Source: Bdellovibrionales bacterium
Lineage (GTDB): Bacteria; Bdellovibrionota; UBA2428
Length of the DNA: 24,446 nt
Direction of reading: 5' to 3'
Assembly (NCBI GenBank): GCA_018266335.1
Contig: JAFEAR010000190.1
Span: forward strand, 1-24,446
Shown here: positions 3,537 through 24,446 of the stretch, piece by piece
How positions within the stretch are numbered: the first letter of the stretch is position 1
How the letters are laid out: every line of letters begins with the position of its first letter
Notes under the pieces: generated by a model
Databases searched by the model: none
Told to the model about the DNA's origin: nothing
What the model saw: the letters and a program-made list of their open reading frames with translations, nothing else
Made by a program: the position numbers and the translations under genes

Positions 3537-3989
3537 TCAATTATTTCGAGACATCTTCGACTCCTCAAAAAGATTTCTTTGTCGAAATACAAAGGAAAGA
3601 GCTTCTTCTGTAACCGTCACATCGATCCGGCTTGAATCGGCATGGCTCATGTCCGGGTCGCCATCGCTGATCTTGGTCTTCAGCTCAATCGCACCAGTTC
3701 CTTCGACATCCTTTAGGGCGGTGAAGAAAATCCACGTGTCTTCGACGTTGTTGGGATCGGGGCACCCTTCGGGCGTCATCTCGACCAAGTTCTCCGGGTA
3801 GCTCTCGAACGACCAAAGTCGTCCGTTACTTTGATCGAGCACGAGCTTTAGAATCTCCCCGCCCTTCAAGCTTGCGGTGTAATTGTGCTTCGGCTTTACG
3901 CGAATTTCCTGTGCCGGTTTCACATCCGGGCACCAACCGTCGGCAAACGCCGGAAGTGATACAAGCGTCATTAGAAGTAATTTTTTCAT
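3537..3989 (-). CDS. Secreted beta-rich protein, possibly chagasin-like fold
   Basis: Encodes 150 residues with a short signal peptide (MKKLLLMTLVSLPAFA) and two Cys in the mature protein (WCPD, EGCPD). The core GGEILKLVLDQSNGRLWSF, then WIFFTALKDVEGTGAIELK, resembles the alternating strands of chagasin-type (I42) inhibitor domains, but the hallmark NPTTGY loop is not preserved, so this is only a fold suggestion. The ATG overlaps the TAA of the CzcC gene by one base (TAATG), so it is translationally coupled to the outer-membrane channel and likely acts in the periplasm with the efflux system. Its tail SKMSRNN may be a premature end, because the frame remains protein-like after the stop. Confidence 0.7.
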   Translation of the reverse strand: MKKLLLMTLVSLPAFADGWCPDVKPAQEIRVKPKHNYTASLKGGEILKLVLDQSNGRLWSFESYPENLVEMTPEGCPDPNNVEDTWIFFTALKDVEGTGAIELKTKISDGDPDMSHADSSRIDVTVTEEALSFVFRQRNLFEESKMSRNN

Positions 3990-5233
3990 TAGATTTCCCT
4001 TTCTTCGATTTTTCCGTCGATGGCGTAGATTTTCCAGAGCGCCTCAAGAGCTGCAATTTCCTGTTCATGCCTACTGCGCATGAAATCAATGAGCTGCCGA
4101 TGAGATTCAATAACCAGCGCACTCGGAACGATCCCGCGTTCCATAAACGACTCGATCTTAGCGTGCTCCTGGTTGATGTTAAGCCCCGATCCCGCACGCG
4201 TTAGCGAATCAACCGCCCGGCGGTAGCGATCCACAAGATTGGCCCGCTCTTTCGTGACTCGGCTTTGGACGGCTTCGAAATTTCGGGCAGCCATTTCAAT
4301 ACCGAGTCGCGAGTGCTCTTTCTTGCCTCCATTCCGATTGAGAATTGGAATCGGCATGCTGAGCATGATGCCGAAGGTCTGCTGGCTATTTGCTCCTTCT
4401 CCCGAGTTTGAAAATGCAGGCCCCACGCGTAGGTCGGGCCACGCATCGGAATCGGCAAGTTCAACTTCAGCACCGGCAACCGTCAGCTCCGCCTTGGCTT
4501 TAAGCACCTCGGAACCCTCTTTTCCGTCACCTGCGGGAATAACTTCGGGCCATTTGGTTTTGTAGATCGGAAGAAGCTTCGCGGTAATCTCAAACTTGCG
4601 ACCAGTCGCAAATTCAAGAGAACGCACACGCTCAATGATTTCGGCTTCGAGAAGGCTCTCACGAATTTTGTAATCCGACCCCGCCATGCGAAAGACTGAG
4701 AGCGAAATCTGCTGTTCGGGCGTGAGTCTCCCGCGCTCGCGGTATTGGCGCGAAACCTTATCAAAGGTCCTAAGGGCCTCCTGAACGCGTTCCAGTTCTT
4801 CTTGAAGCTGCCGGAGTCTGTAGAGGTCCGTGATCGTTTGCAACGCGACTTGCTCCTGAACTGACACGGCTTCCGAGGCTAGTGACATCTTGTCAGCTTT
4901 GGCCTTGAGCTGACGTGCGCCGCGTTTCCCCCCAAGCTCTAAAGGCTGAAGCAGAGTCACGTCGGTAGCCACGGAACTCTGCCCCGAAGCGTCTTGATGC
5001 TCAATTCGTGCCTCAAGTTCAGGATTAGGCAGAGCTGAGGCAATATCCAGAAGTTTTTCGCCTTGCTTGAGGCGACTACGCTCCCGAATCAAATATGGGT
5101 GATTGGCGAGCGCACATTTAAAAACATCCTGCGCATTGGCGTAGGACGTAGGACACGTTGGCTCGGCAGCTTGCACCGCACCTCCAAGGCTCAATCCCAT
5201 ACCCAGCAAGAGCATTTTTGCGTGGATGTTCAT
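3989..5233 (-). CDS. czcC: TolC-family outer-membrane efflux channel, CzcC-like
   Basis: Encodes 414 residues with signal peptide 1-22 (ending AVQA) and the two-fold repeated helical hairpin architecture of outer-membrane efflux proteins. Diagnostic stretches are ALANHPYLIRERSRLKQGEKL and LPNPELEAR near the N-terminus, QPLELGGKRGAR at ~95-106, and the second-half equivalents DLRVGPAFSNSGEG and GIMLSMPIPILNRNGG. The QPLE-GGKR and PIP(I/L)xNRNxG pairs are typical of CzcC/CusC channels. Start ATG at 5233 has GGAGG seven bases upstream. It would form the outer-membrane exit duct for the CzcA pump encoded at 11329, but it is separated from czcBA by the ATPase and the repeat-domain genes, an uncommon order. 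Confidence 0.93.
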   Translation of the reverse strand: MNIHAKMLLLGMGLSLGGAVQAAEPTCPTSYANAQDVFKCALANHPYLIRERSRLKQGEKLLDIASALPNPELEARIEHQDASGQSSVATDVTLLQPLELGGKRGARQLKAKADKMSLASEAVSVQEQVALQTITDLYRLRQLQEELERVQEALRTFDKVSRQYRERGRLTPEQQISLSVFRMAGSDYKIRESLLEAEIIERVRSLEFATGRKFEITAKLLPIYKTKWPEVIPAGDGKEGSEVLKAKAELTVAGAEVELADSDAWPDLRVGPAFSNSGEGANSQQTFGIMLSMPIPILNRNGGKKEHSRLGIEMAARNFEAVQSRVTKERANLVDRYRRAVDSLTRAGSGLNINQEHAKIESFMERGIVPSALVIESHRQLIDFMRSRHEQEIAALEALWKIYAIDGKIEEREI

Positions 5234-5258: not shown

Positions 5259-5987
5259 TTAAAGGCGTGCTCTGATGCCTACCTCGAATTGCTTCATATC
5301 GATTTTCTGATCGGACCCGAGGCTACGCTCGATTCCTGCCGCGAGACGAACACCGCCAAACCAAGAACTCGATCGGGAGGTTTGGTCAAACAACACAATG
5401 CCTCCCGTAATGGCTGCAGTCGGAACCCAGAAGTTCTGGGAGACGCCATCCAGATAACCCGCTTGGCTTAGCCATTGAACGCCGAGGGCAGGCTCAACGA
5501 AGAGCGCAACAGGGCCCGCATCGTAGGTAGCGCGCGTTCCGAGAAGAAGAGGTACCCTCTGAAGGCGGAGGGAATCCATTGACTCATATCCCGTCTTAAG
5601 CGACTTGGCCCTTCCGACGTATTGAGCATACGAGTAACCCGTCGTGACAATGCCTCCGAGCCTAAATCGCGAGTTGGAAACAATCCCGAAGGAAAATCCA
5701 AACTGTACTCCCGGAAGATTTGTTCCCGAGCGTGCGTGGGGCACTTCAAAATACTTGTTACTTAGCGTGAGCTCATTGGGGCTTGTAAGCACAGCCCCAA
5801 CTTCGATCGTAAACGCATCTCGTCTACGCACGGACTCTAGCGAGGCCGCTTCTTCAACCGATTGCCGAAAAATCTGCCTAAACGTCGGCTCATCGGTAAT
5901 GGGCTTATCTTCTTGAGCGAGCGCAGTCCCCGCCGCGAAACCGGCGATTAAAGTGAAAATGATCTTAGTATTCAAAGTGCTCTTCAT
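5259..5987 (-). CDS. Predicted outer-membrane beta-barrel protein
   Basis: Encodes 242 residues with signal peptide MKSTLNTK...GTALA. A short polar segment (~25-58) is followed by alternating hydrophobic/polar strands rich in Gly and aromatic residues (FGFSFGIVSNSRFRLGGIVTT; PVALFVEPALGVQWL; FGGVRLAAGIERSLG) to a short C-terminal strand FEVGIRARL. This is the pattern of a small outer-membrane barrel of about eight to ten strands. No family was recognised. Its ATG overlaps the stop of the preceding lipoprotein gene (ATGA), and czcC begins 25 bp after its end, so it is cotranscribed with the repeat-domain proteins and the efflux channel. Confidence 0.75.
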   Translation of the reverse strand: MKSTLNTKIIFTLIAGFAAGTALAQEDKPITDEPTFRQIFRQSVEEAASLESVRRRDAFTIEVGAVLTSPNELTLSNKYFEVPHARSGTNLPGVQFGFSFGIVSNSRFRLGGIVTTGYSYAQYVGRAKSLKTGYESMDSLRLQRVPLLLGTRATYDAGPVALFVEPALGVQWLSQAGYLDGVSQNFWVPTAAITGGIVLFDQTSRSSSWFGGVRLAAGIERSLGSDQKIDMKQFEVGIRARL

Positions 5988-6496
5988 GATGCACTTCCTT
6001 CCTTGGTGACAAGCACCGTTCCGGTCTTACCGCTGGCACTAGCGTTCCAGGTACCGCTTAAGGTTTTTCCCTCGTCCTTGGAGTCGAGTTGCAAAATCAT
6101 GCGACCGATTTGATCCTGTTCGACGACCAGGGAGATCAGATTTTGCGCGGGCTTGTACTCGCTCTCAACGATGGCTGCGTCCCAGAATTCGTTTCCACCT
6201 GCAGCACCCGCGTAGATCCGAAGTGTTCCGACGATCTTCGGCACGAGCACAGGGTCAACTCCCTCGCCCGTAGACTCGGGGAGATCCTTAACTTCCAAAT
6301 TGAGAAGAACATCCATGTCCACATTGTCGGCCGGATTTTTCAGTTCCCCGGTATATTTACCAGCAACAGTTGAAAGCTCCTGACGCTTCAGGTTCGCCTG
6401 ATCTTGCTGTTGCTGGCGCTTCATGTCGCGCTCGCTGATTTTTCCCTGGGAGCAAGCCCCCAGGGAAATGGTTGCTAAGAGTAAAAGCCGCTTCAT
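5984..6496 (-). CDS. Lipoprotein with one B-type repeat domain
   Basis: Encodes 170 residues. A lipobox SLGAC places the acylated Cys at residue 15. A short Gln-rich linker (RQQQQDQANLKRQ) precedes one domain of about 120 residues starting VAGKYTGELK and ending LSGTWNASASGKTGTVLVTK. This domain has the same outline as those in the two upstream genes: G-x-Y-x-G opening, a central (G/A)xLR(I/M)Y strand, then GxxxGxW and G(K/R)xGTxxL. It contains no Cys after the lipobox. The ATG overlaps the stop of the preceding gene (ATGA) and the gene overlaps the next one the same way. It is probably the membrane-anchored member of the trio; function is unknown. Confidence 0.8.
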   Translation of the reverse strand: MKRLLLLATISLGACSQGKISERDMKRQQQQDQANLKRQELSTVAGKYTGELKNPADNVDMDVLLNLEVKDLPESTGEGVDPVLVPKIVGTLRIYAGAAGGNEFWDAAIVESEYKPAQNLISLVVEQDQIGRMILQLDSKDEGKTLSGTWNASASGKTGTVLVTKEGSAS

Positions 6497-7296
6497 TGGA
6501 CGACCTTCAGTTGGACGGTGCCAACTTTACCGAGGCCATCGGCAAAGACATCGGCAGTGAAGATGCCATCGAGACTCAGTAAGCCTTTAAGCGTCAAGCC
6601 GTACTCCTGGGTCTTCACGGTGAGGTAGCGGTTGTAGAAGTTGAACTGAACGTCCTTGAGCGGCGTCTCGTAGTACTCAAGCGAATCAAAGCTACCGAGG
6701 TACATCCGAAGGTTTCCGGAAATCAGAAGAACCGGCCGACCTGTTGCCATCTCTTGCGTAGTTACCAGCGATAGCGCCATTTTTTCAGGAAGGTTCGATT
6801 GAGGGTTTGTGTTCTTGTACTTGCCTTGATAGTGGCCCGTAATCGAGCGCACAAGCTGCATGCCGGCCGGAGGCACGGGATCGGCATTCTTAAGCGCCTG
6901 GAAGCCGCCTACGCGCCCCACAGACGAGGAATACCAGTCGCCCTTGATCTCGCCATCGCCCAACTGACCAACAAAGCTTACGTCGTTCACCGGATCGCGC
7001 ATGCTGATCTGACGGGTCAAAATGTTCATGGGTACATCGGCGAAGTCGTAGGTGAGAAACTCGTTGGAGTCCCAATCGCCGTAAACGATGCGCACGTTGG
7101 CCGAAATCTTAAGTGTCCCGCCACCAGCCTGAACCGTGCTGAGCGTGAAGAGCGCGTACTGGTAGAAGCCCGTAGCTTCATGGCGAAGCACGGCCTTATA
7201 GGTGCCTTGAACGGAGTCGGTAGCATACGACTGAGCCGACATAAGACTCACGGCGACAGCACTGGATTTGAGGACAGAGCGAATCATGGTTTTCAT
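6493..7296 (-). CDS. Secreted protein with A and B repeat domains
   Basis: ATG at 7296 is preferred over one at 7332 because AAGGAG lies nine bases upstream and it gives a clean signal peptide (MKTMIRSVLKSS...SYA); the longer form would also overlap the preceding gene. The 267-residue product has an A-type domain at ~29-136 (VQGTYKAVLRH ... GEIKGDWYSSSVGRVG) and a B-type domain at ~151-267 (ITGHYQGKYKN ... FADGLGKVGTVQLK). Both are dominated by beta-strand patterns. The tandem appears twice in the upstream gene, so this one looks like half of that protein. No metal-binding motif is obvious; there are no Cys residues in the mature protein. No known family was recognised. Confidence 0.8.
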   Translation of the reverse strand: MKTMIRSVLKSSAVAVSLMSAQSYATDSVQGTYKAVLRHEATGFYQYALFTLSTVQAGGGTLKISANVRIVYGDWDSNEFLTYDFADVPMNILTRQISMRDPVNDVSFVGQLGDGEIKGDWYSSSVGRVGGFQALKNADPVPPAGMQLVRSITGHYQGKYKNTNPQSNLPEKMALSLVTTQEMATGRPVLLISGNLRMYLGSFDSLEYYETPLKDVQFNFYNRYLTVKTQEYGLTLKGLLSLDGIFTADVFADGLGKVGTVQLKVVQ

Positions 7297-7309
7297 TTTC
7301 TTGATCTCC

Positions 7310-8902
7310 TTATCGTTGAATGAAGTTTTCAAAATTGAAGTTTTGCAGAGGGCTTCCGTAAACGTTGCTAATCCTTCGCACGTTCACGGAGCCATTACCC
7401 TTAGGCTCAATAACCAAAATGCCGTCGTCGCCGTAAGAAAGCGCCATACGATTCGTATAGAAATCGTAGGTTGAGGCCGTGATAGGCATTTTTCCGGTAA
7501 ACATAGGAGCGCGCAGGTATCCGGCCACCTTCAGGGGATCAAAGGGGTTGTTTGAGTTAATGGGGGTTCTGCCCAGCGAGATCGCAAGATTCAGGTCCCA
7601 TTCAGGGGCTTTGTAGAGTCCGCTGAAGTCGCTCATGAGTTCCGCGTCTGCGGGAATCGGGGGTGGCCCCGACTTCCGCATCTCGAAGGTTCCTACTCGC
7701 CCAAACATCTTCGACTGCCACTCACCCTTGATCGTGCCGTTGCTGAGTTGGGTGACTTCAAGAATCGCATCCACGTCGGCTTCGGGGCGCATCAAGGCAA
7801 ATTGTCTCACCAAGATGGGGTTCGGGAGCGAGATGGTCTCAAAGCGGTAAGTCGTGAAATTCGGCGAATCGTAGTCACCAAAGAACAGATTCGCCGTAGA
7901 GGCGAGCTTCAGCTCCTGACTTCCGCTCGGACTCATGCTTTGGAAGGTATTCAAAATGATTTTGGCACGTTGAAACTTGTTCAGTCGCTCATGATGAACA
8001 TAGCCGAAGTATTCGCCAGCAATGCCACCAGTGGGCGCAGGAGAGGGACCCGTTTGATGAACCTTGAAGAATGGTTGAGCCTTAGCAGGCTGATAACTGC
8101 GAGGTCCGCTTGTCGAATAGGTTCGTTCAAACTGACACTTTCCGCAGTCGAACTTTTCACCCGGCATAACCTTGCACTGAAAGTTCCTGCGCTTCCCGAT
8201 GAGCGAGAGATTGCCGGAGAAAAAGTTATACGACGACGCGCCGATGTCAGTGATGACGCAGGCCTGATCGCGGTTGGCGTCTTCAAAATCCAGGCAAAGA
8301 TCCTTATCGAACTGCGCAACAGTTCCAGCGATCCGGTAAGGGCCAAAGGGGTTTCCGATCTGGAAGGTGTCTTCAGTCGAACGGACAGCGTTCAGCTGCA
8401 TGACAACCGGCTTTTCGCCTTGGCAGCTACCCCGGTATTCGCCTGAGACGGAATCCACGAGTGGGAGCGTAGGAGCGGCTAAGGGGGCCTGCTTGAGGAC
8501 TAGTTCTCCGACGGGACCGACAAACGAGGAGCTGAATTGAGCCCGAAGCTCACCGTTTCCAAATTTCGTAGTCGTCAGAAACGCGCTTTGGTCGGATTGA
8601 TCGAAAACGAGCTGCTGCGTGAGAATGTTAAATTCGACGTTGTCGAAATGGTAGGCGACATATTCGCCGCTCTCGAAGCCACCAAATTGGAGCGTAAGCA
8701 CGGCGCTTAGGGTCACCTTTGAGGCATCTTCGCGCGAGACGACGAAATCCAGCTTTGCGATTTGCTGGCGTTGCAGACGATCGTGCTTCAAATAGCCAAG
8801 ATAGGTTCCGAACACCTGGGAACTAGCTTGGGCCTTAGTGCCACCCACGAGCAGAAACATCGCGACGAAGCCTCGGAATATATTTTTTTTCATGTGTAAC
8901 AT
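7310..8902 (-). CDS. Secreted four-domain repeat protein (A-B-A-B)
   Basis: The start is taken as ATG at 8902, nine bases after AAGGGG; the frame stays open to 8953, and an alternative ATG is at 8893. After the signal peptide (MKKNIFRGFVAMFLLVGG...AQA) the 530-residue protein has four domains: A1 ~30-138, B1 ~152-263, A2 ~293-412 and B2 ~425-530. A1 and A2 share GxYxGYxxHxRL, a central FG(G/D)(F/Y)(E/D)S strand, YxF, GxxxxxxxSxxxGxVG. B1 and B2 share NPFxPxxxAG and SxYxF(F/Y). Only B1 is Cys-rich, with six Cys including CGKC near its end, which suggests disulfides or metal binding. It sits 98 bp after the Cys/His-rich gene and heads the repeat-protein group. Function is unknown. Confidence 0.82.
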   Translation of the reverse strand: MLHMKKNIFRGFVAMFLLVGGTKAQASSQVFGTYLGYLKHDRLQRQQIAKLDFVVSREDASKVTLSAVLTLQFGGFESGEYVAYHFDNVEFNILTQQLVFDQSDQSAFLTTTKFGNGELRAQFSSSFVGPVGELVLKQAPLAAPTLPLVDSVSGEYRGSCQGEKPVVMQLNAVRSTEDTFQIGNPFGPYRIAGTVAQFDKDLCLDFEDANRDQACVITDIGASSYNFFSGNLSLIGKRRNFQCKVMPGEKFDCGKCQFERTYSTSGPRSYQPAKAQPFFKVHQTGPSPAPTGGIAGEYFGYVHHERLNKFQRAKIILNTFQSMSPSGSQELKLASTANLFFGDYDSPNFTTYRFETISLPNPILVRQFALMRPEADVDAILEVTQLSNGTIKGEWQSKMFGRVGTFEMRKSGPPPIPADAELMSDFSGLYKAPEWDLNLAISLGRTPINSNNPFDPLKVAGYLRAPMFTGKMPITASTYDFYTNRMALSYGDDGILVIEPKGNGSVNVRRISNVYGSPLQNFNFENFIQR

Positions 8903-9000: not shown

Positions 9001-9351
9001 TTAAGAGCGCGGCGGCTCAAAAACAGAGCTTAACGGAGTGAGTGACACCTGTTTATACTGACCGAAGGTCAGCGCGCGAGAAGGCGTGTCTCGAAGAGGA
9101 GAAAGTTCCACAACCTCAACTAAGTGGTGTGAGGCGCAGTGATTCGCGCAGAATAAATGGCAGTTATGATCGGACGCCGAACCCGCGGGAGAGCCTGGGG
9201 CCTGCGATGGAGCACAGCTAGAGCAAACGTCTTCGAGCGATGCCTGCGCAAAAATTTTACTTGCCTTGGACTGGGAGAGGAATTCCGCGCCACATTCCAT
9301 GAACTGAATTGCTCCAGCCAAGAGGATGAAAAGCGCAAGAACACGACGCAT
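9001..9351 (-). CDS. Small secreted Cys/His-rich protein, CzcI-like
   Basis: Start ATG at 9351 gives MRRVLALFILLAGAIQF, a convincing signal peptide; the frame stays open upstream to 9438, but no start there has a better ribosome site and those extra codons overlap the ATPase gene and a promoter. The mature protein carries a Cys/His cluster (VCSSC, then DHNCHLFCANHCASHH) and ends FEPPRS. Small secreted proteins of this composition, with a signal peptide, a Cys/His patch and a terminal PP, accompany czc operons (CzcI-type, DUF2946-like), where they are thought to bind or sense periplasmic metal. It shares layout with the C-terminal half of the protein at 16672-17376. The family assignment is by pattern, not by search. 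Confidence 0.65.
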   Translation of the reverse strand: MRRVLALFILLAGAIQFMECGAEFLSQSKASKIFAQASLEDVCSSCAPSQAPGSPAGSASDHNCHLFCANHCASHHLVEVVELSPLRDTPSRALTFGQYKQVSLTPLSSVFEPPRS

Positions 9352-9361
9352 GAGTACAAAC

Positions 9362-9390
9362 TTCGTACTGAGAAGGCCGTTTGCAGTCAA
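9362..9390 (-). promoter_or_regulatory. Promoter for the Cys/His-rich gene at 9001
   Basis: TTGACT (9390-9385), 17-bp spacer, TACGAA (9367-9362); the -10 end lies exactly ten bases before the ATG at 9351. The same -10-to-ATG distance and spacer occur at the paralogous gene (17103-17075). It lies in the 3' flank of the ATPase gene and implies a very short 5' leader. The -10 matches consensus poorly. Confidence 0.4.
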
Positions 9391-9412
9391 AGACAATCCG
9401 AGGTTTTTCATT

Positions 9413-11323
9413 TTAAATCCGATAGTTGAGGTTTCCAACCCTTAACGAATTTAGGACAACGAGTAAGGTAAGCCCCACATCCGCCACAATGGCCATTACG
9501 AGGCTGCTGTGGCCCAAAAGAGCCAAGACAAGGAAAACGGCCTTAACCCCTACCGCAAGGCCCGTATTGAAGCGTATGGTGTGTAGAGTCCTTCGTCCCA
9601 AACGCACCAAATAGGGCACCAAGTCCAACCGATCATTCAAAATGGCGATCGAGGAGGCCTCAATTGCGGCAGCGCTCCCAACGGCTGCCATGGAAATCCC
9701 AACCGACGCGGAGGCCAAAGCCGGGGCATCGTTAACCCCGTCTCCAACCATAGCGGTCGGGCCAAACTGAAATGAAATCTCGCGGATAGCCGACGACTTT
9801 TGCTCAGGTAGGAGCCCGCTCACGATCTTCTCGATACCTACTACACGTCCGACAAACCGTGCGGGTGACTCGTGATCGCCCGTGAGCATGACGGGCTCGA
9901 TCCCCAAAGCTTTGATGTCGGAGATGACCTTAGCGCTTTCGTCTCGAATAGCATCCGAAAGAGCGACTACACCCTCAACACCCGAGTTTGTTGCGACAAC
10001 GACGGCAGTCTTTCCGTCGGCGTAAAGACGATCAACAGTTTCCACGACCTCTTTTTGAACTTCATGCTCTTCCGAGATGAAAGGAAGCTTACCAACGCAG
10101 TGGTGTTTGTCGTGACAGACGACGCAATCCACCGTGAGGCCCTTGCCCGGAATAGCATGAAAATTCTTCGCTTCGTGAGGCGTTAGCCCTCGGGTTTGTG
10201 CCTCGCGAAAGATGCTCTTGGCTAACGGGTGCTCCGAGGGAGCCTCAAGGCCCGCAAGGCACGCTAGAAGCTCTTCCTGCGTTGTCTTTCCGAACGGCAA
10301 GATGTCCGTTACCTGCGGCTCGCCAAGTGTGAGTGTGCGGGTTTTATCGAAGGCGACTGCACGAAGTTTGGCACAGGCCTCCAGTGCGTCGCCTCCTTTG
10401 ACAAGGATACCGTCTTTTGAGGCACGACCCACCGCCGAGAAAACCGAGATCGGAGTCGAAATTACTAGAGCGCAAGGGCAAGAAATGACCAAGAGTGAGA
10501 GTGCTTCGGCTAGCCACTTGTCAAAGCTTCCTAGTCCAAAAAGAGGGGGCAGCACGGCAACTGCAATTGCAACGAGCACCACAAAAGGCGTGTAGTAGCG
10601 AGAAAACTTCTCGATGAACTTCTGCGAAGGAGCCTTGTTCGATGCCGCCTTTAAAGTTTCGTTGACGATTCTCGACATCGAAGAGTCGGCGGCGAGTGCC
10701 GTAATCTCAACCTCAAGCGACCCTTGCCGGTTCAGCGAACCCGCAAACACCTTGTCTCCAGGATGCTTGTCCTTGGGGAGCGGTTCTCCGGTCATGGAGG
10801 ACTCGTCAACGGATGAAAAGCCAGCTTTCACCGTGCCGTCGAGTGGGATGGCTTCGCCAGGGCGAATAACCATCAACTGACCAATCTTTGCCTCTTCGAC
10901 GGGAATCGGAGTCGTATTGCCCTTGATCTCGACCTTCTTGGGGGCTCTTTCGAGAAGGGCGTAAAGAGCGGCCTTGCTCTTCGAAAACCCATAGCTCTCA
11001 AGCTCTTCGGCAAGCGCGAAGAGCACAACAACCACGACGGCTTCTTCCCACTGGTTGAGGTAGATCGCTCCGATCACGGCGAGAGTCATCAAGAGGTTGA
11101 TGCTTCGGAAGTTGAGCTTAAAAAGAGCCTGAACGCCTTTCTTTAGTACCGCTCGCCCGAAGGTCACAAGCAAGACAACGTAAAGTGGGTACGCAGCCAG
11201 GCGCGGTAATTCGACGCCAGATAAGGAAAGGGCCTCAAGGCCAGTAGCCAGAATGAGGCCTGCTCCCATTAGGAGATACTTGCGGCGAAGACTATCGGCA
11301 GATTCTTTTGCTTCTGTAGCCAT
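9413..11323 (-). CDS. zntA: P1B-type ATPase, Zn/Cd/Pb exporter (P1B-2)
   Basis: Encodes 636 residues with no N-terminal HMA domain. Landmarks: TGEP at 178-181 (actuator), CPC at 282-284 in the metal-pore helix, phosphorylation Asp326, SEHP at 363-366, MLTGDH and [10 protein letters not shown]. The last two helices carry Lys in GLAVGVKAVF and Asp in ADVGLTLLVVLNSLR, which mark the Zn/Cd/Pb subgroup rather than the copper one. Two oddities: the invariant DKTGTLT motif reads DKTRTLT (Arg329), and the nucleotide-binding domain has a Cys/His patch CVVCHDKHHC at 400-409. Its ATG lies five bases after the czcA stop, so export across the inner membrane (this ATPase) and efflux across the envelope (CzcA) are coexpressed. 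Whether the Arg variant is active is open. Confidence 0.92.
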   Translation of the reverse strand: MATEAKESADSLRRKYLLMGAGLILATGLEALSLSGVELPRLAAYPLYVVLLVTFGRAVLKKGVQALFKLNFRSINLLMTLAVIGAIYLNQWEEAVVVVVLFALAEELESYGFSKSKAALYALLERAPKKVEIKGNTTPIPVEEAKIGQLMVIRPGEAIPLDGTVKAGFSSVDESSMTGEPLPKDKHPGDKVFAGSLNRQGSLEVEITALAADSSMSRIVNETLKAASNKAPSQKFIEKFSRYYTPFVVLVAIAVAVLPPLFGLGSFDKWLAEALSLLVISCPCALVISTPISVFSAVGRASKDGILVKGGDALEACAKLRAVAFDKTRTLTLGEPQVTDILPFGKTTQEELLACLAGLEAPSEHPLAKSIFREAQTRGLTPHEAKNFHAIPGKGLTVDCVVCHDKHHCVGKLPFISEEHEVQKEVVETVDRLYADGKTAVVVATNSGVEGVVALSDAIRDESAKVISDIKALGIEPVMLTGDHESPARFVGRVVGIEKIVSGLLPEQKSSAIREISFQFGPTAMVGDGVNDAPALASASVGISMAAVGSAAAIEASSIAILNDRLDLVPYLVRLGRRTLHTIRFNTGLAVGVKAVFLVLALLGHSSLVMAIVADVGLTLLVVLNSLRVGNLNYRI

Positions 11324-11328
11324 AAGCT

Positions 11329-14300
11329 TTAAGCCTCGGTCGGAGTTGACTCCTCGTTTGCAAACATTCTCTTCTCAAACACGCAGTACAGGTTCGGTAA
11401 CACTACGAGCGTGAGAAGTGTTGAAGAAATAATTCCGCCGATAACAACCGAAGCGAGGGGCTTCTGCACCTCCGCGCCCATGCCGGTTGAGAGCATCATC
11501 GGGAGGAAGCCGAAAATATCCACCAGTGCGGTCATTAGCACGGGGCGCAGACGAATCATGGCCCCACGCTTGGCAAGCTCTTCGCCGTGGAGTCCGTGTT
11601 TTCTAAGGTCGTTATAGTAGCTAATGAGAACCACGCCGTTCAAAACCGCAATACCGGAAAGCGCGATGAATCCGACGCCAGCCGAGATACTAAACGGCAG
11701 TCCATTCAGCACAAGTCCCAGCACGCCACCCACTAGCGCTAGAGGTACGCAGGCGAATACGAGTGCGGTCTGAACAACATTCTTGAAAGCGGCAAAGATC
11801 ATGAAAAGTACAAGGACGAGCGCTAGCGGTGCTAGAACCAAAAGCCTCGCGCGAGCTTCCTGGAGGTTCTTGAAATTTCCTCCCCATTCCAGGAAGTAGC
11901 CGGGCGGAAGTTTCACCGAACTTTCCACGGTCCTCATGGCCTCCTCAACAAAGCTTTCCGTGTCGCGACCGCGAGGGTTAATGAGAACCGCAGCGCGGCG
12001 TTTTGATTGCTCGCGGGAGACGGAGCTGTAGGCCTCGGAGAACCCGATATTGGCCAGCTCGGAAAGTGGCGCCGTAGAACTTGCCGCGATCCCCACGGGA
12101 AGATCCCGGATGGACTCAAGATCAGAGCGATCGTCTTCTTTCAGGCGCAGTACGATCGGGAATTTTCGTGCGCCCTCATAGAGATCGCCGACCTCCTGGC
12201 CGCCAATGGCAGTTCGCACCGTCTCCAAAACCTCTCCCGTTGAAACGCCCATGCGCACGAGAACATCATGCTTGGGCTCAACTCTAAGCATGGGAGAGGT
12301 TCCTTTGAGTTCCGTCTCAACGTCTCCCGAACCTTCCACTTTGGAGACAACTGCTGCGATTTGCTTGGTGATGTCCGCAAGCTTCTCCATATCGTCGCCG
12401 AACACTTTTACGGATACGTCTGCACGGGTACCTTCCATCAGTTCGTTGAAGCGCATTTGGATCGGCTGACTGACAAGCGCTCTCTGACCGGGAATTTCAG
12501 CATCAAGCTTTTCAATAATTGCCGCCGCAAGTTCGTCCTTCGTGCGCTGGTGGCCGTTTACTTTCGGCCATTCCTTATGCGGTTTGAGCGTGATGTAGGT
12601 ATCCGAGAGGTTTACACCCATGGGGTCGGTTGCGACTTCTGCTGTGCCGATACGCGAGAAAGGAACGTCCACCTCCGGGAAGGACATAAGAACCTTTTCT
12701 GCCTTCGACTGAAGCGCAATCGATTGATCAATGCTGATGTTCACGGGGCGCCCAAATTGAACGACAAGTGACCCCTCATTGAGCTGCGGCAAGAATTCGC
12801 CGCCAAGTCTTATGAAAAGAAGCGCTCCGAGAACCACGCCGCCCACGCCGATACCGACAGTCATGGCGCGTTTTTTGAAACTCATCTGAAGCAAAGGCTC
12901 GTAGATGCGGGAGAGCTTGCGCATCAGCCAAGGCTCTTTGTCCTCGGCAGCACCGGAAAGGAAGAGACTCGCAAGTGCGGGCGCGGTAGTGAACGACAGC
13001 ATGAGGGCACCGATCACGGCGATGCTGAAGGTAGCTGCCATCGGCACGAACATTTTGCCTTCGATCCCAGACAGTCCGAAGATCGGCAAAAACACAACAA
13101 CGATGATAAGTTCACCAAAACCTGCCGCCGTTCTAATCTCGACTGCAGCATCGTAAACGGCCTTTTGCACCTCGGTTCTGGTCAGCGATCTCTTGATTTC
13201 TTTGGTCTTCTCGTGAATCACTCGCACGCAGTTATCGAGCACGATTACGGCGCCATCGACAATGATGCCAAAGTCCAAGGCTCCCAGGCTCATGAGGTTG
13301 CCCGAAATCCCTCGGTACTTCATGACCATGAAGGTGAAAAGCAAAGAGAGCGGAATCATGACGGCGGTAATCAGCGCCGCCCGCACGTTACCGACGAGGA
13401 AGAGCAGAATGATGATAACAAGTGTCGCGCCCGTAACGAGGTTGTGTTCGACCGTTCCAAGCGTGGCGTTCACAAGATCGGAGCGATCATAGAGCGTTTC
13501 GACCTTGTACCCTTTGGGCAGCCCCTTGCTGATCTCCTCCATTTTTGTGGCGACCCGCTCCGAAACTGTTCGACTATTTTCGCCCATGAGCATGAGAACA
13601 GTCCCCAGGACCGTTTCCTCTCCACGCACGAGGGCCGCACCTGTGCGAAGCTCCGTAGCAAGTTCTACGCTTGCTACGTCGCCGATTGTGACTGTTCGGA
13701 AAGATTCAAGTGACTTGATGGGAACACGTTTGATGTCGTCGATGGTCTTGAGAAGTCCCACCCCTTGAACCAGGAACTGCTCGCCAGTTTGCTGGACGTA
13801 GCCGCCACCGACGTTTTTGTTTGTACGCTCAATAGCGTCGACGATGTCGCTATAGTGAAGGCCGTAGCGGGCCATGGATGCGGATGTCGGTTGGATGTGA
13901 AATTGCTTTTCAAACCCACCGATGGTGTTGACTTCGGCAACGCCTTTCACGGTCAAGAGGCGAGGTTTGATGTACCAATCTTGGATCGCCCGAATTTCCA
14001 TGAGCTGTCTAGTGCGCTCTTCGCCGGTAGCAACCTTTTCGGCTTCGACCGCGTAATGAAAAATTTCGCCCAGGCCTGTCGAAATAGGCCCCAGCCGAGG
14101 GTGAGCCCCTGGAGGCAGTTCTGAAGTTACAGATTGAAGGCGCTCGGCGACGAGCTGACGCGCAAGATAGATGTTTGTGTCCTCTTCAAAAACAACCGTG
14201 ACTTGGGCAAGACCAAATCGTGTGATCGAGCGCACTTGAAGAACGCCTGCGATACCATTGAGAGCTGTCTCAATCGGAAAAGTAACGTTTCGTTCGATTT

Positions 14301-14478
14301 CCTCGGGTGCTAGGCCATCGAGAGGCACGTTCACCTGAACTTGGGTGTTCGTAATGTCCGGCACAGCATCGATAGGAAGCTTCTGGAAGCTCATCCACCC
14401 GGCGACGATGAGAAGTGCCGTGAAGATGAGAACCGTAAGACGATTGTGTACGGAAAAGTAAATAATCTTGTTAATCAT
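11329..14478 (-). CDS. czcA: RND heavy-metal efflux pump, CzcA family
   Basis: Encodes 1049 residues, the usual length. It drives proton-coupled efflux of metal cations from the periplasm through the adaptor and channel. N-terminal helix INKIIYFSVHNRLTVLIF and the following PIDAVPDITNTQVQV are classic for the family. Helix 4 reads DFGIIVDGAVIVLDN with D402, D408 and D415, numbering identical to Cupriavidus CzcA where the third residue is Glu415; the conservative Glu-to-Asp change is unusual. The DFGxxVDG form points to divalent cations (Zn, Co, Cd) rather than the Cu/Ag CusA type. The second half repeats the fold (GGNFKNLQEAR, GFIALSGIAVLNGVVLISY). It starts three bases after the adaptor gene and ends five bases before the ATPase gene. 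Confidence 0.96.
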   Translation of the reverse strand: MINKIIYFSVHNRLTVLIFTALLIVAGWMSFQKLPIDAVPDITNTQVQVNVPLDGLAPEEIERNVTFPIETALNGIAGVLQVRSITRFGLAQVTVVFEEDTNIYLARQLVAERLQSVTSELPPGAHPRLGPISTGLGEIFHYAVEAEKVATGEERTRQLMEIRAIQDWYIKPRLLTVKGVAEVNTIGGFEKQFHIQPTSASMARYGLHYSDIVDAIERTNKNVGGGYVQQTGEQFLVQGVGLLKTIDDIKRVPIKSLESFRTVTIGDVASVELATELRTGAALVRGEETVLGTVLMLMGENSRTVSERVATKMEEISKGLPKGYKVETLYDRSDLVNATLGTVEHNLVTGATLVIIILLFLVGNVRAALITAVMIPLSLLFTFMVMKYRGISGNLMSLGALDFGIIVDGAVIVLDNCVRVIHEKTKEIKRSLTRTEVQKAVYDAAVEIRTAAGFGELIIVVVFLPIFGLSGIEGKMFVPMAATFSIAVIGALMLSFTTAPALASLFLSGAAEDKEPWLMRKLSRIYEPLLQMSFKKRAMTVGIGVGGVVLGALLFIRLGGEFLPQLNEGSLVVQFGRPVNISIDQSIALQSKAEKVLMSFPEVDVPFSRIGTAEVATDPMGVNLSDTYITLKPHKEWPKVNGHQRTKDELAAAIIEKLDAEIPGQRALVSQPIQMRFNELMEGTRADVSVKVFGDDMEKLADITKQIAAVVSKVEGSGDVETELKGTSPMLRVEPKHDVLVRMGVSTGEVLETVRTAIGGQEVGDLYEGARKFPIVLRLKEDDRSDLESIRDLPVGIAASSTAPLSELANIGFSEAYSSVSREQSKRRAAVLINPRGRDTESFVEEAMRTVESSVKLPPGYFLEWGGNFKNLQEARARLLVLAPLALVLVLFMIFAAFKNVVQTALVFACVPLALVGGVLGLVLNGLPFSISAGVGFIALSGIAVLNGVVLISYYNDLRKHGLHGEELAKRGAMIRLRPVLMTALVDIFGFLPMMLSTGMGAEVQKPLASVVIGGIISSTLLTLVVLPNLYCVFEKRMFANEESTPTEA

Positions 14479-15069: not shown

Positions 15070-15510
15070 CTATTCTACCGAACCTTCCTTCGTTTGGTCG
15101 GATGCACTATTGCGCCGCACAAAGTCTCCTTCTTGAACCTGAACCCCTTCGCCGGCCTTCATCACGAAATCCCGTGCGTTGTAGGTCCGCACAACTACCG
15201 CTTTCCCGATATCCTTTCGTGAGCACTTTTCGACTTGCCGGTTACCCCGAGCCCCTGGCACTTGGGTCATTTTGCAAACTCTCCTGGAGAGCTGAAGCTC
15301 TTCTCCCTTTCTCACGGGAGGCGTCGTATCGAAACGAGCGTGAATCTCGTCACTCGAAGGATTCATAATAACCTTTCCCTCATCCGGTTGTTTGATCGTC
15401 GCGCAAGCACTCAGCACAGCGGTTGCGGCAATCGTCCATAAGGACTGGGGAGTGGCGAAGAACTGAACCCAGTTCTTCGCTTTTGATTTAATCGTAGAAA
15501 TTACTTTCAT
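15070..15510 (-). CDS. Lipoprotein with paired cysteines, paralogue of 17438-17785
   Basis: Encodes 146 residues from ATG at 15510, five bases after GAGGTG. A basic N-terminus of ~24 residues precedes a hydrophobic helix and lipobox LSAC (Cys36). The mature part carries GEELQLSRRVCK, RGNRQVEKCSRKDIG and VQVQEGDFVRR. The same landmarks in the same order occur in the 115-residue lipoprotein at 17438-17785 (GDHVQLYRNVCS, RGNGVIEVCKKQNIG, IEFKEGDLVEK), so the two are diverged duplicates, with a likely disulfide between the two conserved Cys. Beta-strand patterns and the repeated EGD suggest a small barrel-like fold. No known family was recognised. It follows the barrel gene by nine bases. Confidence 0.75.
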   Translation of the reverse strand: MKVISTIKSKAKNWVQFFATPQSLWTIAATAVLSACATIKQPDEGKVIMNPSSDEIHARFDTTPPVRKGEELQLSRRVCKMTQVPGARGNRQVEKCSRKDIGKAVVVRTYNARDFVMKAGEGVQVQEGDFVRRNSASDQTKEGSVE

Positions 15511-16671: not shown

Positions 16672-17376
16672 TTAGGCCGTGGGCGGACGGAGAAGAGAAC
16701 CGTAGTGAGGGTCCGAGATCAGAGTGTTCTCGGACGAGACTCCCGAATGAAGAATCGAGAGAGCGTGATCGAGCTGAGTAGCCGCAAGCATAGCGGGGCG
16801 GCAGCTTGAATGACAGTGCGAGTGACAGCTAAGGGCGCAGTCTTCGTCGTGATCCTGATCGGTGCCTTCATGAGAGGTCGGTGAGGAGCAGTCGTCGGCA
16901 GCAAGAGAGGCTTGAGCCGCAGGAGCGCGCTGGGCCTTAGAGGTAGTAGTAGCGGCTGTCACTCGTTCGCTATGGGCGACCAGCTCAGAGAGATGGAGCC
17001 ATTGAGAAAGCAGGCCAATTCCCAACACCAGCAAGATCAGCTTGGATGTGAGTGTTTTGGCCATTTCCATATATATTGTATGAAGCTCCGACCTACTTGT
17101 CATCGGAATTCCGAAGAATTTCTTTAATTGTATATTCAGCAGTTTGACGCCCCTTGCGTACGTTACATCGCATGTATCTAAAACTCGAGTTTGCATGTCT
17201 TGGCCATCAGGCATGGGAACTCTAAACATGCCCTGCTTTCTAACCGTTAAAACAAAGTCGTTTCGATAAGTGAGCGGAGCTTCTCCGTGAGGAGTTCGGT
17301 CGTGAGCAAATACCCGGCTCTCAGAGATGCAAAGGGAGAATGCAACAAAAAGCCAATAGACTTGAGTCTTCTTCAT
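16672..17376 (-). CDS. Composite frame: secreted N-terminal part plus CzcI-like Cys/His-rich protein
   Basis: The frame of 234 codons reads like two proteins. Residues 1-102 start with a signal peptide (MKKTQVYWLFVAFSLCISESRVFA) and a small domain with one mature Cys. At 103-105 a second start region (ATG at 17070 and 17064) begins another signal-like segment (KLILLVLGIGLLSQWLHL), followed by a Cys/His-rich stretch (DCALSCHSHCHSSC) and an ending LRPPTA, the same layout as the protein at 9001-9351. A good promoter, ATGACA-17-TACAAT, lies just before 17070/17064 inside the first part. I think the functional CzcI-like protein starts at 17064 or 17070, and that the upstream part is a separate or truncated secreted protein that runs into it in frame. 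A true 234-residue protein with an internal helix cannot be excluded. Confidence 0.65.
   Translation of the reverse strand: MKKTQVYWLFVAFSLCISESRVFAHDRTPHGEAPLTYRNDFVLTVRKQGMFRVPMPDGQDMQTRVLDTCDVTYARGVKLLNIQLKKFFGIPMTSRSELHTIYMEMAKTLTSKLILLVLGIGLLSQWLHLSELVAHSERVTAATTTSKAQRAPAAQASLAADDCSSPTSHEGTDQDHDEDCALSCHSHCHSSCRPAMLAATQLDHALSILHSGVSSENTLISDPHYGSLLRPPTA
17075..17103 (-). promoter_or_regulatory. Internal promoter for the CzcI-like half
   Basis: ATGACA (17103-17098), 17-bp spacer, TACAAT (17080-17075): five of six consensus bases in each hexamer. The -10 ends ten bases before the ATG at 17064 and four before the ATG at 17070, implying a leaderless or nearly leaderless message. Spacer and -10-to-ATG distance equal those at 9362-9390. 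Confidence 0.5.
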
Positions 17377-17437: not shown

Positions 17438-17785
17438 TCAGTGCATGTGTTTTTCGACCAGATCGCCTTCCTTGAACTCAATTTCTGCGGGCACTCGAAT
17501 CACAGAGTAAGACTCGTTAATGAGCTGAATAATTTCTCCATGGCCAATGTTCTGTTTTTTGCAAACCTCTATAACGCCGTTGCCGCGACTCCCGGAGTGT
17601 TTTTGACTACACACATTTCTGTAGAGCTGCACGTGGTCGCCAACGGAAACTTCGCCAGCTCCCATGCTAACGTGAGCGTCCGTATCGGAGACCTTCATGG
17701 CAACGGTTGCGCGTCTTACATTGGGAGTAGTCGCGCAAGCGCCAAGGAAAAGAAGCGTGGTTATGGTGGCTAACTGAGCTTTCAT
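17438..17785 (-). CDS. Small lipoprotein, paralogue of 15070-15510
   Basis: Encodes 115 residues with lipobox LGAC (Cys17). The mature domain has GDHVQLYRNVCS, RGNGVIEVCKKQNIGHGEI and IEFKEGDLVEKHMH, matching the 146-residue lipoprotein at 15070-15510 in order and spacing. The two conserved Cys may form a disulfide; the extra His residues (HVSM, KHSG, HGE, HMH) could bind metal. Its ATG overlaps the stop of the HMA protein gene (ATGA), so both are made together and probably act together in the periplasm. It ends the leftward copper operon that starts at the shared CsoR-type operator. No known family was recognised. Confidence 0.78.
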   Translation of the reverse strand: MKAQLATITTLLFLGACATTPNVRRATVAMKVSDTDAHVSMGAGEVSVGDHVQLYRNVCSQKHSGSRGNGVIEVCKKQNIGHGEIIQLINESYSVIRVPAEIEFKEGDLVEKHMH

Positions 17786-19959: not shown

Positions 19960-20253
19960 GTGAAAAAGAAGATGACTTCAAGCAATCAACACCCGGATCA
20001 CACCGCAAAACTTGTTCGACTTAGGCGAATTCGTGGTCAGATTGAGGGTCTTGAGCGAATGATTGGGGAGCGGCGCTACTGCCCGGAAATTCTAGTTCAG
20101 ATTCAAGCCGTCAGTTCAGCCCTCAGGTCACTTGGGGCCTCCATCTTGGAGGGCCACCTTGATCATTGCTTAAGAAACGCGATGATAAAGAAAAAATCCC
20201 AAGATGCGGAACAAAAGATTCGCGAGGTCGTAGAACTCTTTAGAAGGAGTTAA
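19960..20253 (+). CDS. csoR: Copper-sensing repressor CsoR
   Basis: Encodes 97 residues from a GTG start preceded by a purine-rich GGGGGAGAAGG; an ATG at 19972 is an alternative. It is an all-helical DUF156 repressor: LVRLRRIRGQIEGLERMI is the conserved first helix, and the Cu(I) ligands Cys41 (RRYCPEI), His66 and Cys70 (EGHLDHC) match the Cys-His-Cys set of CsoR, rather than the RcnR or CstR patterns. In the family, the apo-tetramer binds GC-rich palindromes and leaves them when Cu(I) binds across subunits. Three fitting palindromes occur in the window (2756, 3069, 19490). It is in the operon it would repress, five bases before the next gene. Confidence 0.95.
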   Translation: MKKKMTSSNQHPDHTAKLVRLRRIRGQIEGLERMIGERRYCPEILVQIQAVSSALRSLGASILEGHLDHCLRNAMIKKKSQDAEQKIREVVELFRRS

Positions 20254-22179: not shown

Positions 22180-24446
22180 ATGGATTCAAACGGCTCTCAT
22201 TCCCACGATCACAGTAAGATGCATACGGAAACCGATCCCGTGTGCGGGATGAGAGTTGACATGCGCACCCCCAAGGGTGGCCAATGCAACTACCAGGGGA
22301 AAACCTACTTCTTTTGCAATCCAAAGTGTCGCGATAAGTTTTTAAGAGAGCCCGCAAAGTACCTGTCTTCGCCACCAGATGCCACAAAACAAGTTAAGGC
22401 ACCTGAGGGAACTCTCTACACCTGCCCAATGCACCCGGAGGTGCTAAGCCCTAAACCAGGGAGCTGCCCCAAATGTGGCATGGCGCTTGAACCCATGGAG
22501 CCAAGCCTCGAGCCGGTAGGAAGCCACGAGCTTCACGACATGCGCAGAAGACTTTGGGTATCGGCACTTCTCACACTTCCCGTAGCAGCTCTTGCAATGG
22601 GTGGAATGGCTTTTCCTTCGTTCTCGTTTGCCCATTTTCTTCATTCTCGAGCGGCGCAGTGGAATCAACTCGCACTTGCAGCCCCCGTTGTGCTGTGGGG
22701 AGGCTGGCCTTTTTTTGAGCGCGGATGGGCCTCCGTAAAAAATCGTAGCCCCAATATGTTCACGCTCATCGCCATGGGAGTTGGCGTGGCCTTTTTTTAC
22801 AGCATTGCGGCCACGCTCTTCCCCTCTTGGTTTCCTCCCTCGCTCAGAACGCAAAACGGCACGGTTGAAGTTTACTTCGAAGCTGCTGCTATCATCACGA
22901 GCCTTGTTTTAGTGGGACAGGTTTTAGAACTGAAGGCGCGTGATCAAACAGGAAACGCGCTAAGGTCTCTACTTGGACTTGCCCCAAAAACCGCTCGAGT
23001 CGTACGAAATAACGGGGCCGAGGAGGATATTCTCCTCTCGGAAGTCGAAGTGGGGCAGCGCCTCAGGCTTCGCCCAGGCGAGAAGGTGCCGGTCGATGGG
23101 ACGGTTCTAAGCGGGTACAGCTCTATTGATGAGTCCATGGTCTCAGGTGAACCTATCCCTGTTGAAAAACGCGAAGGAGATCTTGTTGTAGGTGGCACGC
23201 TCAATGGAACAGGTTCCTTCTTAATGCGCGCGGATAAAGTTGGTCGAGACACCTTGCTTTCTCAAATTGTACGCCTAGTGTCTGAGGCCCAGCGCTCTCG
23301 CGCCCCTATTCAGCGAATCGCCGATCAGGTAGCTGGCTACTTTGTTCCAGTAGTGCTTGTAATTGCCGCTTTGACCTTTGCTATTTGGTTTTTAGCTGGA
23401 CCCGAGCCGCGCCTGGGACATGCCTTGGTCAATGCAGTTGCCGTGCTCATCATCGCTTGCCCGTGCGCCTTGGGGCTTGCCACCCCCATGTCCATCATGG
23501 TTGCAACTGGCCGAGGGGCCACTTCTGGCGTGCTTTTCAAAAATGCCGAGGCCTTAGAGCGCTTGCGAGCCACCACCACGCTTGTTGTCGATAAGACCGG
23601 AACTTTGACTGAAGGAAAGCCTCGCCTGACAGGAATTTGGGCGGCGGGATCGCACTCTGAGAACGATCTACTTGAATTTTCTGCAAGCCTTGAGCGCGGC
23701 AGCGAGCACCCATTGGCCGCAGCTATCGTAAAAGCCGCAGAGGAGAAAAAGCTAAAACCAGCAAATGCAGCGAATTTTGAATCCTTGACTGGCAAGGGTG
23801 TCACGGGCGCTGTCCAGGGCACCCGCGTTGCGCTTGGCAACCAAGCTCTTCTTGATGAGCTAAAGATTTCCACATCTGATGCTCTTAAAGCAAAAGCCGA
23901 TGAATGGAGAGCGTCTGGCGCTACGGTTCTTTTTGTTGCCATTGATGGAGGTGCAGACGGAATTCTTCGAATCGAAGACCCCATCAAGGAATCAACTCGT
24001 GAGACGCTCAGCGCTCTTCACGCAAATGGCATTCGTATCATTATGCTCACCGGAGATAACCCCATAACGGCCAAAGCTGTATCCGAGAGACTTGGCATTG
24101 ATCAATTTGTTGCAGGCGTGCTCCCCGCGCAAAAAGCAGAAGAAGTACAGCGGCTGCGCGAGCAAGGAGATGTCGTCGCGATGGCCGGAGACGGAGTCAA
24201 CGATGCCCCTGCTTTGGCTGCGGCCGATGTGGGCATTGCCATGGGATCGGGCACCGATGTTGCCATCCAGAGCGCGGGAGTAACTCTTGTAAAAGGCGAC
24301 TTGCGTGGAATCTTGCGTGCGCTGGATCTTAGCCGCGCCACCATTCGCAACATCAAACAAAACCTCTTTTTTGCGTTCGTCTACAACGCATTGGGGGTGC
24401 CTGTGGCAGCCGGGCTTCTCTATCCTTTTTTTGGCATTCTATTGAG
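22180..24446 (+). CDS. copA: Copper-exporting P1B ATPase CopA (3' end outside the window)
   Basis: ATG at 22180 has GGAG seven bases upstream; 755 codons are visible with no stop. Instead of HMA domains it carries a His-rich start (HSHDHSKMH), a YHS-type domain (DPVCGM at 19-24, YFFCNPKC at 43-50) and a short metal-binding domain YTCPMHPEV...[10 protein letters not shown] (80-105). Catalytic landmarks follow: SGEP in the actuator domain, C427-P-C429, D471-KTGTLT, SEHPL, MLTGDN and [17 protein letters not shown] in the penultimate helix marks the Cu(I)/Ag(I) class. The window ends in YPFFGILL, just before the final helix. It is the last visible gene of the CsoR-controlled operon and would pump Cu(I) from the cytoplasm to the periplasmic proteins encoded beside it. 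Confidence 0.96.

Follow-up and report, generated by a model that had tools for sequence, protein, structure and literature searches.

An undescribed family of predicted secreted tandem-domain proteins linked by gene order and gene fusion to metal pumps and multicopper oxidases of the bacterial envelope

It is held that a tripartite metal pump cannot do without a periplasmic adaptor extending towards the outer membrane. What accompanies such a pump when its adaptor gene is a stub is the question raised by a 24,446-nucleotide stretch of DNA from a Bdellovibrionales bacterium (contig JAFEAR010000190.1 of assembly GCA_018266335.1; hereafter the window), in which a CzcA-type heavy-metal pump of the resistance-nodulation-division (RND) superfamily is encoded in one co-directional run with three adjacent, predicted secreted proteins, P1, P2 and P3. 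An earlier, sequence-only reading had placed seven copies of an unrecognised domain in three neighbouring genes tightly packed with czcC and a barrel-protein gene, and had taken the single-domain product for a lipoprotein. These points hold: the seven domains at 5984..8902 are encoded by three co-directional open reading frames (ORFs) on the minus strand, the P1-P2 and barrel-czcC gaps are 13 and 25 bp, the P2-P3 and P3-barrel overlaps are 4 bp each, and P3 carries a lipobox recognised by eye. From gene order and gene fusion we conclude, with good support, that P1, P2 and P3 represent a new family of tandem-domain proteins that serve metal machines of the envelope; that they do so as secreted tandem-barrel scaffold proteins is the mechanism we prefer, with a confidence that falls just short of even.

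Neither P1, P2 and P3 nor the neighbouring barrel protein reaches the cut-off of any Pfam or NCBIfam family. Pfam scans of 26 P2-type and 25 P1-type proteins returned nothing significant (best E-values 0.014 and 0.021), with a single weak match to the lipocalin-like GH43_C family at E 0.091, no significant match came from searching PDB sequences with profiles, and neither this domain family nor an adaptor-less metal pump was found among the top-ranked literature matches. As judged from these comparisons, and in agreement with the sequence-only reading, P1-P3 are an undescribed tandem-domain family.

To compare the domains with one another, seven alignments (120, 120, 120, 120, 120, 121 and 16 rows) were aligned pairwise with hhalign, first with insert columns and then on match columns only together with controls. 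On match columns the ten pairs among P1-1, P1-3, P2-1, P2-2 and P3 (the second figure gives the domain) have probabilities of 95.0-99.8 and the pair P1-2/P1-4 has 96.5, with the remaining ten cross pairs at 0.5-7.7; the controls reach maxima of 5.6 among 126 column shuffles and 3.3 among 21 reversals, values that one cross pair, P1-2/P1-3 at 7.7, slightly exceeds. With insert columns the ten family-a pairs range from 94.7 to 99.8 and the top cross pair, P1-4/P2-2, stands at 19.8. These family and cross-pair probabilities indicate a layout of a-b-a-b in P1, a-a in P2 and a in P3, and the single A/B alternation that had been proposed for all seven domains is thereby ruled out: it describes P1, whereas P2 and P3 are built of family a throughout. 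A remote kinship between the two families may nonetheless exist. The G-x-Y-x-G opening said to be common to the domains is present in all seven as G-x-Y-x-[G/A], and the central FGDxDS-like strand was found in four of the seven. The closing motif ascribed to A-type domains takes the form G-[RKP]-[VT]-G and is confined to the five family-a domains (P1 126 and 398, P2 127 and 256, P3 156), among them the second domain of P2 and that of P3, which had been counted with the other type.

The structure models of P2 and P1 are confident (mean pLDDT 91.3 and 84.4), with eight predicted strands per domain in the six folded domains, except for nine in P1 domain 1, and with the signal peptide as the sole helix. 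As modelled, family a resembles calycin-like barrels such as nitrobindin, lipocalin and avidin, as well as a barrel domain of quinohemoprotein amine dehydrogenase (1jju), at about 12% identity; unlike calycin-like barrels, the window proteins come in arrays of two and four and have no significant sequence-family match. Three Foldseek matches of the P1 model below E 0.001 have query TM-scores of 0.08-0.09 and were taken as noise, and comparison with viral structures gave no match below E 0.001.

The genomic context of P1 was read in 36 P1-type loci from 25 genomes, which derive from a P1 profile search of one phylum, described below, and one further locus. A Cu-oxidase_3 match lies within 1.5 kb in 14 of the 36, against 0.06 expected on the assumption of independent genomes, a figure that overstates the significance because related genomes are not independent; in a fifteenth oxidase-linked locus (G001:C275) the oxidase is the gene next to P1, 1521 bp away. 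Fusion into one open frame, 875-957 aa long with the oxidase first and a P1-like part after it, accounts for six of the 14, all six with a Cu-oxidase_3 match, and among the separate oxidase neighbours five were confirmed by Pfam and a sixth in part. A CzcA/CusA-type pump occurs in the stretch read at 7/36 loci, and a pump or an oxidase at 21/36, the sole locus with both being L045, where P1 stands with pump, oxidase and a CusB-like adaptor together. A tree was built from 31 P1-type rows, the window's among them, after six incomplete ones had been dropped from the 37; in it all 15 oxidase-linked rows fall inside one group of 17 (99/100), within which the oxidase fusions form one clade (99/95), and the other six pump-linked rows share a set of 14 (99/100) with eight unlinked ones.

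We presume these oxidase partners to be comparable to multicopper oxidases of the PcoA/CopA type and their partner proteins. The likeness lies in the position of P1-like proteins, beside a multicopper oxidase or fused with one. The differences are two: the oxidases next to them are short, at 344-377 aa, and were taken as two-domain from this length and their Pfam matches; and in the scanned member (L045) no Pfam family matches the partner domains. A gene of 435-466 aa follows the oxidase fusion in all six cases; the four products tested gave sub-threshold OEP/TolC matches (outer-membrane efflux protein, OEP; L079 with Pfam, L081, L083 and L084 with NCBIfam), and, these matches being weak, no efflux-gene identity is claimed for it.

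All eight P2 loci read (the window, L001-L006 and L039) encode P2 next to a P3-type lipoprotein and the barrel protein. A gene for a CzcA-type pump lies no more than about 6 kb away in each; in L001 and L006 the contig ends inside it. These eight loci and the 15 oxidase-linked P1 loci support the envelope and metal setting in which the secreted tandem domains had been placed. One further locus, L042, contains P1, lipoprotein, barrel protein, OEP and pump, with no P2 match. A longer lipoprotein with two additional P2-like domains is encoded in L001, L004, L005 and L039, which indicates that domains have also been gained in this family; this, together with the occurrence of the three genes side by side in distant genomes, speaks against the stepwise loss from four domains to one that had been envisaged. 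Related sensor histidine kinase genes, a possible regulator, lie near P2 or P1 in L001 (1570-2871), L004 (1592-2899), L006 (7907-9184) and L051 (2824-4077).

Homologues at E 0.01 or better number 127 for P1 (the window's own included), 127 for P2 and 11 for P3, the best 120 of 127 being taken for P1 and P2 each and P1 scoring covering the 7994 candidates that share most words. The names displayed are 'hypothetical protein', and the organisms, where given, are metagenome-assembled genomes of Bdellovibrionota, Deltaproteobacteria or Proteobacteria. P2 occurs in six genome records, from Bdellovibrionaceae (L001, L003), Bacteriovoracaceae (L002) and broadly classed organisms (L004-L006). Among 368 genomes of the phylum of L003, the P2 profile at E 1e-10 matches 15, six of them with full-length P2-type proteins and the remainder with P1-type proteins, and the P1 profile at E 1e-8 matches 25; since at most 7 (P2) or 4 (P1) candidates per genome were scored, the locus counts are lower bounds. 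The genome of L005 is missing from the phylum matches despite its own strong match, which suggests that the family is not limited to this one phylum. A plasmid search and a first genome scan for these proteins gave no useful result. The P1 gene of L002 (8375-9926) contains 108 N and is split into two pieces.

How could such proteins serve a pump or an oxidase? In the scaffold or docking mechanism that we prefer, lipidated P3 would, with the neighbouring barrel protein, anchor the set at the outer membrane, as its lipobox and the conserved gene pair suggest; P2 would dock on P3, a contact suggested by relatives whose P3-type lipoprotein carries fused P2-like domains; and the four-domain string of P1 would reach into the periplasm and hold a metal enzyme or pump partner, which gene order and fusion point to as the CzcA/CzcC export system in the window and a multicopper oxidase in other lineages. 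The role would then be structural rather than metal-binding, one of assembly and contacts. Several observations weigh against this proposal: Foldseek found no match below E 0.001 for the P2 model in the PDB; the cysteines of P1 domain 2 could form a metal site; kinship among the genomes inflates the significance of the P1-oxidase proximity; the pump-linked P1 rows are not one clade in the tree; and neither pump nor oxidase is seen in 15/36 P1 loci (seven of them on contigs under 7 kb), with L040, L043 and L044 sharing, by eye, a context that has no visible metal gene.

At a conservation threshold of 85%, the P2 alignment keeps one His and no Cys or Met, and the P3 alignment (16 rows), apart from the start Met, only the Cys that carries the lipid; for want of a conserved Met/His/Cys set like that looked for in periplasmic chaperones or stores of the CusF, SilE and CopC type, metal chelation by P2 and P3 is unlikely, and the metal buffering once suggested is dropped for these two proteins. 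In P1, which has two conserved His, domain 2 contains Cys157, Cys240, Cys250 and Cys253 in 120/120 aligned proteins and Cys200 and Cys212 in 115/120, residues that may form disulfides or a metal site. A rival reading makes P1, and with it all three proteins, a chaperone or store of periplasmic metal, which would be bound at the four near-invariant cysteines and delivered to the pump or oxidase; we find it somewhat unlikely. It would fit the retention of these four across all contexts (30, 31, 31 and 30 of the 31 tree rows), the fusion or adjacency of P1 to an oxidase and the presence in the window of a CsoR/RicR-like regulator gene (19960-20253, scoring under family cut-offs), but it sits poorly with the ligand-poor P2 and P3, with the tendency of Cys200 and Cys212 to co-occur, which mostly gives an even six as disulfides would, and with a DsbA-like gene near P1 in L003.

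The remaining explanations part from the scaffold mechanism on other grounds. The modelled barrels might be calycin-like cups that take up a small organic molecule, whether a metal-ligand complex, a lipid or haem, and pass it on to the export system; the fold by itself reveals no function, no ligand-biosynthesis gene was noticed in the loci read, in which no search was aimed at one, and we regard the idea as distinctly unlikely. That P1-type proteins are general envelope components, their metal context a by-product of resistance-island clustering, would account for the 15 loci devoid of pump and oxidase and for the context common to L040, L043 and L044, but six oxidase fusions and the 8/8 linkage of P2 to a pump exceed what island clustering would give, and we hold this to be highly improbable. 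The slightest chance is given to a role of P3, with P2, in capture or defence: exposed at the surface as a lipoprotein, in the manner of TbpB, HpuA or fHbp, P3 would act together with the outer-membrane barrel.

Could the scaffold instead stand in for a full adaptor? Like the adaptors MexA, CusB and BesA, P1-P3 are secreted, beta-rich proteins encoded beside an RND pump; they match no adaptor profile (TIGR01730, HlyD_D23 or HlyD_3, in Pfam and NCBIfam scans of the window proteins and Pfam scans of 51 aligned proteins), and the P1 and P2 models have no helical hairpin. A hairpin is not obligatory, in that BesA of Borrelia is reported to be an adaptor without one (PMC4446572). As in the CzcCBA and CusCBA systems, the window encodes CzcA and a CzcC-like OEP, here within the same co-directional run as P1-P3. 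It departs from them in having no more than a stub for an adaptor gene and in its additional products, three tandem-domain proteins plus an extra barrel. The stub, directly before CzcA, has a His/acid-rich start and scores 22.1 bits with TIGR01730, short of the family's cut-off (94.9), at the membrane-proximal C-terminal end of the profile and with no match to its lipoyl, beta-barrel and hairpin parts. Small free-standing proteins beside P1-oxidase pairs in two other genomes (L048 10938-11303 and L053 101-514; E 5.2e-6 and 1e-6, also below the cut-off) match positions 61-133 only, which we take to be the adaptor hairpin. The stub homologues before CzcA in L003 (1332-1859) and L039 (10820-11569) also have a His/acid-rich start but gave no adaptor match. 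Window stub and hairpin-only proteins together suggest an adaptor in pieces.

The association of adaptor and module was counted over 16 CzcA/CusA-type pump genes above the cut-off in 13 genomes, in a table entered by hand and with the module-less loci re-read. An adaptor gene lies beside the pump in 2/8 cases with the module and 4/8 without it (Fisher p 0.61, or 0.28 when two loci on contigs of 4.3 and 6.3 kb are omitted), and three of the four adaptor-bearing pump genes without the module are CusA-like, which makes pump type a confounder. Moreover, L005 has the module plus two adaptor genes, one of them over the family cut-off, and no adaptor gene was recognised in six other RND loci (L059-L064) of a Bdellovibrionota genome, G003, so that adaptor absence is not specific to the module. 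These three findings count against an adaptor in pieces, and strict replacement of the adaptor by the barrel module is not supported. A modular bridge, in which the adaptor would be dismantled, its stub kept, and the periplasm spanned by calycin-like barrel strings of P1 and P2, with the lipoprotein and the barrel protein as their anchor, would be unlike any adaptor known to us; it gains no support from the association test and seems unlikely to us.

Table. Features of the window (positions on its forward strand) and oxidase-P1 fusions in other loci (positions within each locus).
Feature	Position	Strand	Remarks
P1, predicted secreted four-domain protein, 527 aa	7310..8893	-	upstream ATG possible at 8902
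P1 domain 1, family a	8483..8812	-	residues 28-137; hhalign, predicted strands
P1 domain 2, family b	8108..8458	-	residues 146-262; hhalign
P1 domain 3, family a	7670..8026	-	residues 290-408; hhalign, predicted strands
P1 domain 4, family b	7313..7636	-	residues 420-527; hhalign, predicted strands
P2, predicted secreted two-domain protein, 267 aa	6493..7296	-	upstream starts possible
P2 domains 1 and 2, both family a	within 6493..7296	-	residues 28-138 and 150-267
P3, lipoprotein, 170 aa	5984..6496	-	lipobox LGAC, Cys15 (by eye); charged N-terminal linker; one family-a domain
P3 domain, family a	within 5984..6496	-	residues about 44-166
Putative outer-membrane barrel protein	5259..5987	-	judged by eye; no Pfam match; conserved beside P3
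CzcC-like OEP	3989..5233	-	PF02321, E 7.2e-21
Heavy-metal P-type ATPase	9413..11323	-	TIGR01525, 540.7 bits (cut-off 346.25)
CzcA-type heavy-metal RND pump	11329..14478	-	TIGR00914, 1236.1 bits (cut-off 701.45)
Adaptor stub, 173 aa	14482..15000	-	TIGR01730 positions 250-314 of 322, E 6.2e-5
Oxidase-P1 fusions	L079 2124-4997; L080 2177-4846; L081 1985-4687; L082 2487-5138; L083 1192-3828; L084 530-3157		

The co-directional run of the window comprises, in order, the adaptor stub, CzcA, the P-type ATPase, a short Cys-containing ORF, P1, P2, P3, the barrel protein, CzcC and a small ORF. A second P-type ATPase lies on the plus strand (22876-24363) and matches the first at 35% by similarity. Short Cys/His-containing ORFs with signal-like starts and, by eye, similar PPR/PPT tails are found in the window (9001-9411, 16672-17376), L002 (7442-7816) and L003 (8027-8371), and related small lipoprotein-looking ORFs in the window (15070-15510, 17438-17785) and L002 (7890-8294); a Pfam scan matched neither the former nor the two window copies of the latter.

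An undescribed barrel-like family travels, then, with metal pumps; relatives of P1 are fused to copper oxidases, and the window's pump comes with a mere stub of an adaptor gene. If P1, P2 and P3 are structural partners of these machines, metal export and oxidation would have an accessory part of a new kind, for which the gene pairs and fusions described here offer handles for testing the function of a pump without a full adaptor.

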